Shown here: positions 29,427-40,239 of the stretch, one piece after another | How the letters are laid out: the number at the start of each line of letters is the position of its first letter | How positions within the stretch are numbered: the stretch's first letter is position 1 | Origin: Mycobacterium vicinigordonae | GTDB lineage: Bacteria > Actinomycetota > Actinomycetes > Mycobacteriales > Mycobacteriaceae | NCBI RefSeq assembly: GCF_013466425.1 | Contig: NZ_CP059165.1 | Coordinates: 496,001-560,000 of the forward strand | Direction of reading: 5' to 3' | Length of the DNA: 64,000 bases | Made by a program: the position numbers and the translations under genes | The notes under the pieces: model-generated | Seen by the model: only the letters and a program-made list of their open reading frames with translations | The model's database searches: none | What the model was told of the DNA's origin: nothing

Positions 29427-30407
29427 CTACTCGCGGCATTGTTCAGTCCCAGCATCGCTGGTGGTGGTGTCTGACGGCCAATAAGCACGCCACTCCTCTT
29501 CACTGATGTCATTGATCAGACCGACCGGTGCGGCATCAACCTGCGTTGTAACGTCGGCGTTGCGGCGACTGGCGGCGATTGCAAGCTCGGCGGCCCGGAC
29601 GGTATCCATGAACGCGACGACATCGGTGCGCAAGTTGTTTTCCGCGTCAGTATCAGCCGAGATCGCCACGGACGTCACCTTCCTCGGTATCAGGTCGACC
29701 GGTAGGCCAGCTCGGACAACTCGTTGAATCACTTTCTGAGCCAGGACTAATGCTGGCTGACCGTGCAAGACATCGTCGATCGCAGAGGTGCGCGCCTTCT
29801 GGGCGGCTTTGTGGCCTTCCCACTGAGCCAACTGCTGATCCAACGTGGGCGACTCGCCCGCGAGCACTCCCAGCCGTCGGGCTTCCAACTTCTGCACCAG
29901 GGCTTCGGCAACGTCGTCAATCGTGAATCCGTTAATGGGTGCATCTGCGGCGATCCGCGCATGAAAAATCACTTGTAGTAGCAGGTCGCCTAGTTCTTCG
30001 CGCAGTTGATCAGAATCGCCAGTACGTACCGCGTCCAGCAGTTCGTAGACTTCCTCCAGCAGATACAGGCGAAACGACTCATGAGTCTGGTTCGCTTCCC
30101 AGGATCCCTCCACGCGCAGTTTGTCGATCAGTGCGACTGCGTCAATCAACCGCTCTCCGCATTGCGGCGATGGACCCGAGACCAACTGCTCTCCCGCAGC
30201 GATCCTGGAAATGACCACAGGATGTGAGGCATCAGAAGACAGCAACACAGAAGCCTTCTGCCCAGAATCGATCGGTTGAGCCCATGGTGGCAACCAGGCC
30301 ACCATGACAGGCAGTTCTTCCGTGTATTGCACGTCGCGACAAAGCAACTCGATCGCTGCCATCGGGACTAGCGAAGGACGGCGTGGATCAACGAGGACGA
30401 TTGTCAC
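29427..30407 (-). CDS. MazG-family nucleotide pyrophosphohydrolase, paralogue at island edge
   Basis: 326 aa from a GTG at 30407; the open frame extends 49 codons further up, but homology begins with TIVLVDPRRPSLVP. It follows mycobacterial MazG (Rv1021) end to end, with lower identity. The alpha-helical NTP-PPase motif is intact: EEVYE at 118-122 and EELGD at 137-141. MazG cleaves NTPs to NMP plus PPi. Because the housekeeping mazG lies elsewhere in mycobacteria, this should be a second copy. In the cytokinin-like context it could turn prenylated adenosine triphosphate into the monophosphate used by the LOG enzyme; that is inference. It is divergent from the miaB-like gene. Confidence 0.82.
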   Translation of the reverse strand: MTIVLVDPRRPSLVPMAAIELLCRDVQYTEELPVMVAWLPPWAQPIDSGQKASVLLSSDASHPVVISRIAAGEQLVSGPSPQCGERLIDAVALIDKLRVEGSWEANQTHESFRLYLLEEVYELLDAVRTGDSDQLREELGDLLLQVIFHARIAADAPINGFTIDDVAEALVQKLEARRLGVLAGESPTLDQQLAQWEGHKAAQKARTSAIDDVLHGQPALVLAQKVIQRVVRAGLPVDLIPRKVTSVAISADTDAENNLRTDVVAFMDTVRAAELAIAASRRNADVTTQVDAAPVGLINDISEEEWRAYWPSDTTTSDAGTEQCRE

Positions 30408-30918
30408 CCTGCTCGCCCGTTCCGCCTTGGCGGTGACATGGCTTATACCAACCCGGTCGGGGATCCCGCTGCGATGTTGTGACAGCGAGCTAGACGAGCT
30501 GCCGCAGCTCGACCAGGCAAGCGCGACCTGGTGCCACCCGATCCGCCACAGCACGTCTCGCGAGTAATAGGCCCGCTGTTAGCGGCCGCAGTGTCGGACC
30601 CAAGTCGCCCTATCACACAAGAACCTCCAAATCCGAAACTTAGCGGGCGGCGCCATTGTCTGCCGAGAACCGTGCAGGGTTGCTACCTGCCAAGGAATCT
30701 TCAACTAGAACCGAAATCTAATTTTGCCACAGCCCCCGAAACTTCAAGTTCACCCGTGCGTTTAAGGCCTCGGAACACATAGTCCAATTTATTTTATACA
30801 AAACACTTGCGATGGTCTGATGCGCGTGGTTATAGTGACTTCAGACACAGCAAGGAAGCTCCTCCAAGCGGAATCCTCACCCCTCTCTTAAGGGGACAGG
30901 AAAGCCCCGATCCCACCA
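30408..30918. other. A/T-richer intergenic stretch left of the repeat array
   Basis: No convincing gene on either strand. Composition is visibly richer in A/T than the mce1 region (for example around 30700-30850). It holds a promoter-like element reading rightward and, at about 30883-30900, a CCCCT...AGGGG hairpin that opens the repeat region. Confidence 0.5.
30807..30836 (+). promoter_or_regulatory. SigA-like promoter reading into the hairpin array
   Basis: TTGCGA at 30807-30812 and TATAGT at 30831-30836 are separated by 18 nt, a good match to a housekeeping promoter and rare in such GC-rich DNA. Transcription would begin near 30843, about 75 nt before the first hairpin repeat, giving an RNA with the Shine-Dalgarno sense of the array. 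It may also provide a long leader for the miaB-like operon. Confidence 0.45.
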
Positions 30919-31797
30919 CTTCCTGAAAAGGAGATTCGGGACTGTGCCGCACCTCCCTGAAAAGGAGGCCCGGTAACCCCCAGCAGTGTCTCGTGGCTCC
31001 CTGAAAAGGAGATTCGGGACTGTGCCGCACCTCCCTGAAAAGGAGGCCCGGTAACCCCCAGCAGTGTCTCGTGGCTCCCTGAAAAGGAGATTCGGGACTG
31101 TGCCGCACCTCCCTGAAAAGGAGGCCCGGCCCGCAGCAACCGCCGCACCTCCCTGAAAAGGAGGCCCGGCCCGCAGCAACCGCCGCACCTCCCTGAAAAG
31201 GAGGCCCGGCCCGCAGCAACCGCCGCACCTCCCTGAAAAGGAGGCCCGGTAACCCCCAGCAGTGTCTCGTGGCTCCCTGAAAAGGAGATTCGGGACTGTG
31301 CCGCACCTCCCTGAAAAGGAGGCCCGGCCCGCAGCAACCGCCGCACCTCCCTGAAAAGGAGGCCCGGTAACCCCCAGCAGTGTCTCGTGGCTCCCTGAAA
31401 AGGAGATTCGGGACTGTGCCGCACCTCCCTGAAAAGGAGGCCCGGTAACCCCCAGCAGTGTCTCGTGGCTCCCTGAAAAGGAGATTCGGGACTGTGCCGC
31501 ACCTCCCTGAAAAGGAGGCCCGGTAACCCCCAGCAGTGTCTCGTGGCTCCCTGAAAAGGAGATTCGGGACTGTGCCGCACCTCCCTGAAAAGGAGGCCCG
31601 GCCCGCAGCAACCGCCGCACCTCCCTGAAAAGGAGGCCCGGTAACCCCCAGCAGTGTCTCGTGGCTCCCTGAAAAGGAGATTCGGGACTGTGCCGCACCT
31701 CCCTGAAAAGGAGGCCCGGCCCGCAGCAACCGCCGCACCTCCCTGAAAAGGAGGCCCGGCACTCCTACAATTTCCCGCACCTCCCTCCAAAGGAGGC
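30919..31797 (+). repeat. Tandem array of ~22 SD-bearing hairpins
   Basis: Core (C)CTCCCTGAAAAGGAG(G) recurs 22 times plus one degenerate last copy (CCTCCCTCCAAAGGAGG). Each core folds as CCTCC/GGAGG with a CTGAAAA loop. Three spacer types follow: type a (29 nt, period 44), type b (19 nt, period 34) and type c (25 nt, period 40). Type a is always followed by type b, so the real units are a+b (78 bp, seven copies) and c (40 bp, six copies). The plus strand presents AAAAGGAG(G), an ideal Shine-Dalgarno; the minus strand contains CCTCCTTT, as in the 16S rRNA 3' tail. All three minus frames are open only because the units lack stops. Confidence 0.9.
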
Positions 31798-38791: not shown

Positions 38792-39283
38792 TAGTGACAG
38801 TGGCACCGGAGGATCGCGAGGATATCGGTCGGCAAGGTATGCGGCACACAACTTCGACAACTTGGCGCCAGTGCTCTCGCCACGCTGATTGTCGCTGATC
38901 AGAGCTCTAGGTACTTCGAATTAAAGAATGGCGTTTCAATTGCGCAGAGTGTCGTTGGCGCAACGAATTTGACTCCGCTGTCGGGATACTGGTATCTCCT
39001 TAGTAGATTTGTTCTCAGTGGGAATCGAGAACCGGGTAGACCAATTGAAATCCTTGCAGGTGGCTCACACGGCTGCGGCCGCGGTACGGCAAGGGACAGT
39101 CGTGCTATCGGTAGGAACGCCATGTCATTGGTAACTGCTCTCTCGGAGATACCGTCTTCGGTGACAGGGGATCCGGAAACCCTGGGGGTGCCGCCGAGTA
39201 AGTGCTCGTGCATCCCCTTGCCCTCAGGCGCTCGCGCCGGCAAGCGTGCAAGCAGCGGTACTGAAGAAGTCTTACGCGGATGA
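38781..39283 (+). pseudogene. Probable decayed or frameshifted gene between idi and miaA-like gene
   Basis: An ATG at 38781 overlaps the idi stop and opens 35 codons (MPADSDSGTGGSRGYRSARY...) that end at 38888. From ~38798 a different plus frame is open without a conventional start, reading LGASALATLIVADQSSRYFE then LKNGVSIAQSVVGATN, and runs to 39283, overlapping the miaA-like ATG. A single frameshift near 38860-38880 would join the two. A TTG at 38969 could start a 104-aa remnant. I do not recognise the product. Composition is patchy, which fits decay, but a genuine small gene is not excluded. Confidence 0.35.
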
Positions 39284-40239
39284 GACCAATTGCGATCATT
39301 GGACCAACAGGAACCGGCAAGTCGGCATTGGCGCTCGGCATTGCGGAACGGCTCAGCGGCAAGACCGCGGTAGAAATTGTGAACGCCGATGCGATTCAAC
39401 TTTACCGGGGCATGGATATCGGAACAGCAAAGGTGCCTATTGCTGCGCGCCGTCGTGTTCCCCATCATCAGATCGACGTACTTGAGGTAACCCAAACCGC
39501 CAGCGTCGAGAGCTATCAGCGGGCGGCCAAGGCAGACGTCGAAGCTATCATCGACCGCGGAGGGCTGCCGGTTCTAGTCGGCGGTTCGATGCTCTACATT
39601 CAAGCGCTGCTGGACAACTGGTCGTTTCCAGAGACCGACCAAGCCGTCCGCGAGCGATGGGAGCTGCGGCTTGCTGAAGTCGGAGCTACGGAGTTGCACT
39701 CTGAGCTGGCCCGTCGCGACCCCGCCGCAGCCGCGGCGATTCCCGCGGGCGACGCCCGGCGCACGGTGCGCGCGCTTGAAGTAATCGAAATCACCGGCCG
39801 ACCGTTTTCGGCATCGGCGCCACGTATAGGCCGTCCACAGTGGGACACTGTGATCGTCGGATTGGACTGTGACACAAAGCTTCTCGACGAGCGTTTGACG
39901 CAAAGGACCAATGCGATGTTCGCGCAGGGCCTGGTCGAAGAGGTCGTATCGCTGCTCAGGATCGGGCTAGGTAAAGGTGTGACTGCGTCGCGCGCGCTGG
40001 GATATGCGCAGATCCTCACTGCCCTACGGGAGGGTGGTGACGTCAACTCGCTTCAAGACGCCCGGGAAAAGACCTGCCTTGCGACGCGTCGCCACGTTCG
40101 ACGGCAGCGGTCGTGGTTTCGTCGGGACCATCGGGTGCAGTGGCTCGACGTCAGCGATGCAACCCGGGCTCGCGAACAGCTCACTATCGATTCGGCGTTG
40201 CGCGCCTGGCGAACTCAGCCCCACGGAGTAAGCGCATAG
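39280..40239 (+). CDS. MiaA-type dimethylallyltransferase, island paralogue
   Basis: 319 aa. The P-loop GPTGTGKS is at residues 8-15. NADAIQLYRGMDIGTAK (~36-52), HHQIDVLE (~66-73), GGSMLYIQALL (~101-111) and DARRTVRALEVIE (~157-169) are all family motifs, and the C-terminal region retains a tRNA-binding-like basic segment (KTCLATRRHVRRQRSWFRRD). MiaA transfers the dimethylallyl group of DMAPP to A37 of tRNA; related adenylate IPTs use AMP/ADP/ATP. The housekeeping miaA is elsewhere (Rv2727c), so this is an extra copy. It may accept a methylated prenyl donor made by the island methyltransferase. Full length (~314 in M. tuberculosis), no obvious lesion. Confidence 0.87.
   Translation: MRPIAIIGPTGTGKSALALGIAERLSGKTAVEIVNADAIQLYRGMDIGTAKVPIAARRRVPHHQIDVLEVTQTASVESYQRAAKADVEAIIDRGGLPVLVGGSMLYIQALLDNWSFPETDQAVRERWELRLAEVGATELHSELARRDPAAAAAIPAGDARRTVRALEVIEITGRPFSASAPRIGRPQWDTVIVGLDCDTKLLDERLTQRTNAMFAQGLVEEVVSLLRIGLGKGVTASRALGYAQILTALREGGDVNSLQDAREKTCLATRRHVRRQRSWFRRDHRVQWLDVSDATRAREQLTIDSALRAWRTQPHGVSA

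Follow-up and report, generated by a model that had tools for sequence, protein, structure and literature searches.

Rhodococcus fascians makes methylated cytokinins through mt1, mt2 and FasD, as passages of PMC8234997, PMC9401056 and PMC10881772 describe. Mycobacterium tuberculosis also secretes cytokinins, with 2-methylthio-isopentenyladenine the most abundant according to PMC6016246, and a passage of PMC7680852 holds that 2-methylthio cytokinins derive solely from tRNA breakdown. Here we describe an island at positions 29427-40239 of a 64,000-nt stretch of Mycobacterium vicinigordonae DNA (G000:C1:496001-560000, hereafter the window; the host genome has 6,266,765 bases), in which a gene set resembling the fas locus of R. 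fascians is accompanied by paralogues of the tRNA-modifying enzymes MiaA and MiaB and by an array of repeats that look like tRNA anticodon arms. Because the array is present in all three islands with MiaA and MiaB and absent from L025, a locus with an adenylate isopentenyltransferase (IPT), we propose that it is a substrate of these two enzymes. Our leading reading, to which we give somewhat less than an even chance, is that the array RNA may be a sacrificial substrate of the duplicated MiaA and MiaB: a methylated, 2-methylthio cytokinin would be built on this dedicated RNA and freed by LOG. The features concerned are the following.

30918-31796, + strand: tRNA anticodon arm-like array; 23 repeats, each of a 7-nt loop between complementary 5-nt arms
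30807-30836, + strand: predicted promoter upstream of the array (TTGCGA, 18 nt, TATAGT; consensus scan)
29427-30554, - strand: MazG-type nucleoside triphosphate pyrophosphohydrolase, a paralogue (NF008987, 486.7 bits, cut-off 375)
32039-33655, + strand: miaB paralogue, for adding 2-methylthio to prenylated A37 (TIGR01574, 443.6 bits, cut-off 355.3); start uncertain, an alternative GTG at 32066 having a better ribosome site, as read by eye
33794-34663, + strand: S-adenosylmethionine methyltransferase of the prenyl-diphosphate C-methyltransferase kind (family profile and homologue matches)
34827-36053, + strand: cytochrome P450 (PF00067)
36050-36511, + strand: SnoaL/NTF2-like protein (PF13577, SnoaL_4), starting inside the P450 stop
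36508-37326, + strand: LOG, cytokinin nucleotide phosphoribohydrolase type (TIGR00730, 175.8 bits, cut-off 96.35; solved LOG relatives)
38171-38791, + strand: type-1 isopentenyl-diphosphate isomerase, IDI (NF002995, 246.1 bits, cut-off 127), intact in this island only
39280-40239, + strand: miaA paralogue, tRNA-type A37 prenyltransferase (PF01715, 253 bits; tree; conservation)

The island and known routes to cytokinins

A preliminary description of this stretch had listed eight genes and likened them to a fas-type cytokinin locus. The open reading frame (ORF) list and profile searches place all eight between 29427 and 40239, and the translational coupling it reported for P450, NTF2 and LOG is visible as ATGA overlaps at the P450/NTF2 and NTF2/LOG junctions. 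The resemblance to fas also stands: a prenyl-diphosphate-type methyltransferase, a P450 and a LOG occur together in both loci, the island adding extra MiaA and MiaB, and the island enzyme shares 33% identity with a methyltransferase encoded on the D188 plasmid of R. fascians. Where fas uses the adenylate IPT FasD, however, the island has MiaA and MiaB, the anticodon-arm-like array and MazG, and it is chromosomal in a mycobacterium. No adenylate IPT (PF01745) occurs among the island ORFs scanned, and the slot for prenyl transfer is filled by the PF01715 enzyme MiaA. L025, the closest case outside the mycobacteria, comes from a metagenome-assembled genome of the Thermomonosporaceae and has a methyltransferase (56% identity), a P450 and a LOG within 4 kb, as in the island; it differs in carrying a PF01745 IPT between methyltransferase and LOG, with no match to the array, MiaA or MiaB.

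The tRNA-degradation route of M. tuberculosis and E. coli shares the activities of MiaA, MiaB and LOG with the island, but it runs on housekeeping enzymes and tRNA, whereas the island has extra enzyme copies, a methyltransferase, a P450 and, it appears, an RNA array of its own. Sponge RNAs of the CsrB type carry, on one transcript, about 20 hairpins with a protein recognition motif in the loop. The many-hairpin design is alike; here the loops show the site of MiaA/MiaB modification, and the enzyme genes adjoin. Finally, the methyltransferase belongs to the family of the C-methyltransferases of isopentenyl diphosphate (IPP) and dimethylallyl diphosphate (MonMT, ArgMT, FasMT, HumMT), several relatives lie beside IDI, and a passage of PMC9401056 reports that seven tested enzymes accepted IPP.

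An array of anticodon-arm-like repeats

The array lies within the coordinates of the preliminary description, which does not mention it, and it belongs to the island. Among 396 Mycobacterium genomes, three match a methyltransferase probe at E <= 1e-30: the window's own (G000), G161 (taken as M. basiliense) and G237. This is a count among the genomes searched and not of all carriers, and other relatives of the methyltransferase exist (P0002, P0004-P0006, 68-76% identity). In the window the tandem repeats stand between MazG and MiaB, directly 5' of miaB and on its coding strand, and repeats likewise stand directly 5' of miaB, on its coding strand, in G161 and G237.

Counting 5-nt arms around the loop YTNNAAA with at least four of five pairs gives 23 copies in G000, 15 in G161 and 11 in G237, of which 15, 15 and 7, respectively, form all five pairs (37 of 49; the remaining 12 form four). 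When the arms were kept constant and the loop was allowed to vary, G000 showed CTGAAAA (22) and CTCCAAA (1), G161 CTCAAAA (15), and G237 CTCAAAA (10) and CTTAAAA (1); because the arms are those of the first search, this count would pass over any copy in which arms and loop had both changed. Read as tRNA positions 32-38, the loops present the anticodons GAA (Phe), CCA (Trp), CAA (Leu) and UAA (Leu). C32, U33, A36, A37 and A38 are unchanged in 49/49 copies while positions 34-35 and the stems vary, and in an alignment of 11 unit types these five are exactly the invariant loop columns. According to a passage of PMC9336784, from which we took the anticodon loops for comparison, M. tuberculosis MiaA requires A36A37A38 and acts on the Leu-CAA, Phe-GAA, Trp-CCA and Ser-CGA tRNAs; the RNase T1 fragments given there contain CUCAAAA (Leu), CUCCAAA (Trp) and AAAAG for Phe. 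Our own tRNA search in 47 loci returned a Pro and a doubtful Asp only. An excerpt of PMC5372745 describes a 17-nt tRNA-Phe anticodon-arm oligonucleotide bearing N6-isopentenyladenosine at position 37 that is modified by E. coli MiaB.

The core motif has 23 matches in the window against 0.09 expected, and the 23 copies in the leader compare with a shuffle mean of 0.18 and a largest value of 3 (300 shuffles). Across 1,457,920 bases of other, partly overlapping loci, 14 perfect anticodon-arm-like matches occur, no three of them within 400 bp. With a covariance model, the three arrays account for all 49 matches that reach E <= 7.5e-4, and the next best has 0.92 (59 sources, 851,437 bases); since the model was built from these units it matches the arrays by construction, and the result is the absence elsewhere. 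In the window it finds the 23 copies and nothing else at E <= 1. In the arms, 94.5% of 55 cells are paired and the covariation score is 0.313, values each reached by 0 of 500 shuffles, and three of the five arm pairs are changed on both sides. CCTCC and CCTTC arms pair fully in the 7-nt loop register only, while CCCCC arms permit a shift. For M. basiliense, the ensemble probability of the loop-closing pair is 0.91-0.93 in the seven CCTTC units, 0.14-0.26 in seven CCCCC units and 0.69 in the last.

We rejected the array as a tRNA gene or Rfam family, ARAGORN giving 0 in the window and no Rfam family reaching its gathering score in 26000-42000. Long ORFs of the minus strand cross the array, but the spacings would break the frame, and we rejected a coding role as well. 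These spacings are 34, 40 and 44 nt in the window; the main period in the other two genomes is 71 nt.

The predicted promoter agrees with the consensus at 9 of 12 positions, a match that is no proof of activity, and 30500-32150 holds two such sites against 0.3 in shuffles. TTGTGC-18-TACAGT, with a weak -35, was read by eye at a like place in G161 and G237. A scan found no terminator-like site after the array. Between array and miaB, G161 (L023) and G237 (L053) show a strong hairpin (TCGAATTCCCC/GGGGAATTCGA), possibly a processing site; the window folds otherwise there.

With the low-complexity filter on, the array has zero matches in plasmids and phages. A pattern scan of viral contigs, covering at least 120 stretches, gave loose clusters at four loci (L287, L311, L332, L333) among the matches listed, and by eye we judged these AT-rich or coding chance. 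The screen took three perfect hairpins in 400 bp as its criterion at 80 loci and four loose ones in 300 bp at 40 loci.

Distribution and origin of the island

Seven core genes are linked in all three islands: MiaB, methyltransferase, P450, SnoaL/NTF2, LOG, MiaA and MazG. The row in M. basiliense runs MiaB, methyltransferase, P450, NTF2, LOG, IDI remnant, MiaA, MazG, with identities to the window island, in this order, of 83.5, 70.1, 64.0, 57.7, 62.9, 39.7 (the remnant), 72.9 and 52.6%. G237 has the same row minus IDI (82.2, 69.4, 62.3, 62.6, 58.9, 68.8 and 56.2%). MazG lies divergent and upstream in the window island and downstream of MiaA in the other two. Ratios of nonsynonymous to synonymous distance range from 0.056 to 0.273 in 21/21 pairwise comparisons of the seven genes, some of the synonymous distances being close to saturation. 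By these comparisons, the seven-gene set is linked and under purifying selection.

The preliminary description had suggested looking for its gene set in other genomes and had assigned a step to every gene. The set is indeed linked in M. basiliense and G237 (with the window, 3/396), but IDI does not belong to its core: it looks decayed in M. basiliense (a remnant at L023 6780-7259) and is absent from the G237 island. Decayed or absent in two of three islands, IDI is dispensable, and a scheme that gives each gene a step is not supported. The island IDI is the sole type-1 IDI match (TIGR02150) in G000; G161 has no match and G237 one, outside its island. At class level, 37/394 genomes have a methyltransferase relative at E <= 1e-20, and IDI adjoins the relative in 9 of the 24 class-level loci fetched (L122-L145), 8 of these 9 having one genus code.

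The possibility that the island LOG, MiaA and MiaB are the only copies in the genome, which the preliminary description had named as one that would refute its reading, is rejected. Second copies of MiaA, MiaB, LOG and MazG lie outside the island in all three carrier genomes (MazG of G000 at G000:C1:5115792). MiaA is present in 69/71 genomes of the family, with two copies in G000 alone. In a MiaA tree of 51 rows the island copies form one clade (100/99) within the Mycobacterium MiaAs (10-row clade, 100/99). In the MiaB tree (35 rows) the island copies make up a single clade (100/100) that falls within the family and apart from the Mycobacterium MiaBs (8 rows, 100/99), and in the LOG tree (54 rows, row L025 very long) a single clade (100/99) apart from the Mycobacterium LOGs (6 rows, 99/99). 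Since MiaA falls inside and MiaB and LOG outside the Mycobacterium clades, genes of unlike ancestry have, on these trees, been assembled and kept together in the island. MiaA relatives also occur on plasmid records, for example on one from Tsukamurella (62%) and on plasmids of Clavibacter (42%).

GC content is 0.59-0.62 in the island genes against 0.64-0.66 in the rest of the window measured. Three further features bear on the extent and content of the island.

29358-45349, no strand: insertion stretch, absent at the same site of genome G006
36559-36679, + strand: MiaB-like N-terminal extension of LOG (local alignment and tblastn)
37457-38068, - strand: 203-amino-acid ORF between LOG and IDI, without a Pfam match

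In G006 (locus L230), a match to 28682-29357 is followed by 103 bp and then by a match to 45350-46743; G011 (L232) is similar, with about 467 bp between the two flank matches, and G017 matches on the Rv0187 side alone. As Rv0187 and window position 45350 are near-adjacent in G006 and G011, the island sits within an insertion of about 16 kb. Within 40797-45349 this insertion also contains an ORF for a methyltransferase (40797-41408) and a region that is PE_PGRS-like. The islands of G161 and G237 have flanks in common that are unlike those of the window, and their chromosomal site thus differs from that in G000. The 203-amino-acid ORF has no tblastn match in the islands of G161 and G237.

The encoded proteins

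Of 93 positions that 48 housekeeping MiaAs have in common, the island MiaAs retain 91, 88 and 90 (window, G161, G237). The tRNA-binding C-terminus is intact, including Arg274, whose role in tRNA binding is taken from a passage of PMC10644310. With these positions kept, RNA is the expected substrate, and the earlier proposal that MiaA prenylates adenine is not supported. At position 39, beside the conserved Asp37, the islands have I, Y and Y where the housekeeping rows have M (46/48) or L (2/48). The MiaBs retain 227, 225 and 227 of 230 conserved positions.

LOG also matches Lysine_decarbox (PF03641), and its translation contains LPGGLGTLEE, in agreement with the motif PGGxGTxxE. Against the cytokinin-specific model NF058542 it scores 222.4 bits, below the threshold of 300, yet this is its best NCBIfam match. 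Its N-terminal stretch is similar to the start of the MiaB domain (~40 residues), with a score that 0/2000 shuffles reach, in 3/3 species; a MiaB query independently finds the extension in G237 by tblastn at E 2e-6. This MiaB-like start (36508-36690 in the window) is without the cluster cysteine in all three islands, and is perhaps left over from a fusion, or else serves in docking. A protein search with the extension gave 19 candidates, none at E <= 0.001, and the NTF2 homologue search gave a single match besides the query itself. The translated P450 contains the heme and I-helix motifs. The methyltransferase scores 180.5 bits against NF041943, a geranyl-diphosphate C-methyltransferase model, far below its cut-off of 400, and we rejected its identity as a geranyl diphosphate 2-C-methyltransferase.

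A possible RNA-scaffolded synthesis and its alternatives

We envision the following sequence of events. The array would be transcribed from the predicted promoter, and the methyltransferase, aided in the window island by IDI, would make a C-methylated C5 prenyl diphosphate. The MiaA paralogue would transfer the methylated chain (or plain dimethylallyl) to the hairpins' A37-equivalents, of which a transcript would offer up to 23, and the MiaB paralogue would add the 2-methylthio group. Turnover of the RNA would liberate modified 5'-nucleotides; MazG would bar modified triphosphates from re-entering RNA and return them to monophosphates, LOG would set the free base loose, and the P450 and SnoaL protein would oxidise the side chain. 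In general terms, this would be RNA-scaffolded biosynthesis: a small signal molecule made on a genetically encoded, non-coding precursor RNA of tandem anticodon-arm mimics, which duplicates of tRNA-modifying enzymes would mature, much as ribosomally synthesised and post-translationally modified peptides are made on theirs, and released by degradation and LOG. To this broader formulation, too, we give somewhat less than an even chance. The interpretation given in the preliminary description is partly supported, the product being a prediction.

Several points weigh against a dedicated RNA substrate. As many pairs changed on both sides as in the arms are reached by 21/500 shuffles, and as many pair types by 143/500; structures slid by +1 to +3 keep up to 2 pairs changed on both sides. 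The hairpin of five pairs and seven loop nucleotides is the best ViennaRNA fold for 4/9 unit types, the CCCCC/GGGGG units favouring six pairs with a CAAA loop and other units another pairing. In the window, the loop-closing pair has an ensemble probability of 0.32-0.67 in 19/23 copies and of 0-0.11 in 4; in G237 it is 0.91-0.92 in 2/11 and as low as 0.06-0.28 in 9. Moreover, repeats amplified from one unit are not independent, and none were found outside the three genomes in the loci searched, plasmids, phages and part of the viral collection. As no terminator-like site follows it, the array could belong to the miaB mRNA as its 5' leader. The island P450 is only 30% identical to that of L025. 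Lastly, we infer the C5 prenyl diphosphate substrate of the methyltransferase from its family and IDI neighbourhood, and from sequence we likewise infer every step of the mechanism, their order, the donor and the product.

Arrays with many copies of a hairpin are known among RNA sponges, as in CsrB, which binds CsrA. The main rival takes the array for such a sponge, or a leader regulator, that binds MiaA or MiaB and tunes the cluster or tRNA modification, with ordinary tRNA as the scaffold of the cytokinin-type product and LOG releasing it. This we regard as rather unlikely. The position 5' of miaB, with no terminator-like site following, suits it, as does the origin of 2-methylthio cytokinins solely from tRNA breakdown stated in the passage of PMC7680852. 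A sponge, however, needs binding and not a reactive A37, yet U33 and A36-A37-A38 are kept in 49/49 copies, a constancy that also fits a binding site.

It is improbable, in our view, that the island acts in translation by giving A37 an altered second modification (2-methylthio-N6-isopentenyladenosine that is C-methylated or hydroxylated), with LOG and MazG clearing debris and the array as decoy or sensor. The conservation of MiaA (91/93) and MiaB (227/230) would make tRNA a fit substrate, and I, Y, Y at MiaA position 39, against M in 46/48, is compatible with a new donor. But the housekeeping MiaA and MiaB would compete for the same tRNAs, and 3/3 islands conserve a dedicated LOG, an enzyme for which the modification of tRNA has no known use.

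A fas-like route on free nucleotides would have the MiaA paralogue prenylate AMP or ATP with a methylated donor and MazG trim the triphosphate for LOG, the array being a bystander. The enzyme slots are those of L025, where the PF01745 IPT lies between methyltransferase and LOG, and MazG would supply LOG with its monophosphate. The intact tRNA-binding C-terminus of MiaA with Arg274, the presence of the RNA enzyme MiaB in the set and an array left unexplained make this route very improbable. Finally, that the array is an ordinary repeat of the repetitive extragenic palindrome kind, alike by chance, beside genes for another modified isoprenoid or nucleotide product with MiaA and MiaB as self-resistance copies, finds some footing in short GC-rich palindromes being common repeats, in the amplification within each genome and the other folds of several units, and in methyltransferase relatives that sit in isoprenoid clusters (L026) or beside IDI (9/24 class-level loci), but is very improbable for an array found at the same place and strand in 3/3 islands, nowhere else in the sequence searched, and with variants that keep exactly the MiaA motif.

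Implications

Searches of open-licence papers on mycobacterial cytokinin clusters and on anticodon-arm arrays or RNA-encoded cytokinin precursors listed none that, judged by title and start of abstract, reports such a system, and we know of no precedent for a pathway with a dedicated disposable RNA substrate. The sponge reading would also be new, as a natural array of anticodon-arm mimics beside miaA and miaB. If synthesis on the array RNA is true, the carriers would gain over the ordinary tRNA-derived route a supply of cytokinins independent of tRNA turnover, and the question of an origin of 2-methylthio cytokinins besides tRNA would be settled for these species, with a route to modified adenines. 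Mycobacteria would then possess an elaborated cytokinin chemistry, in which tRNA-modifying enzymes would have turned biosynthetic by owning a disposable RNA substrate.

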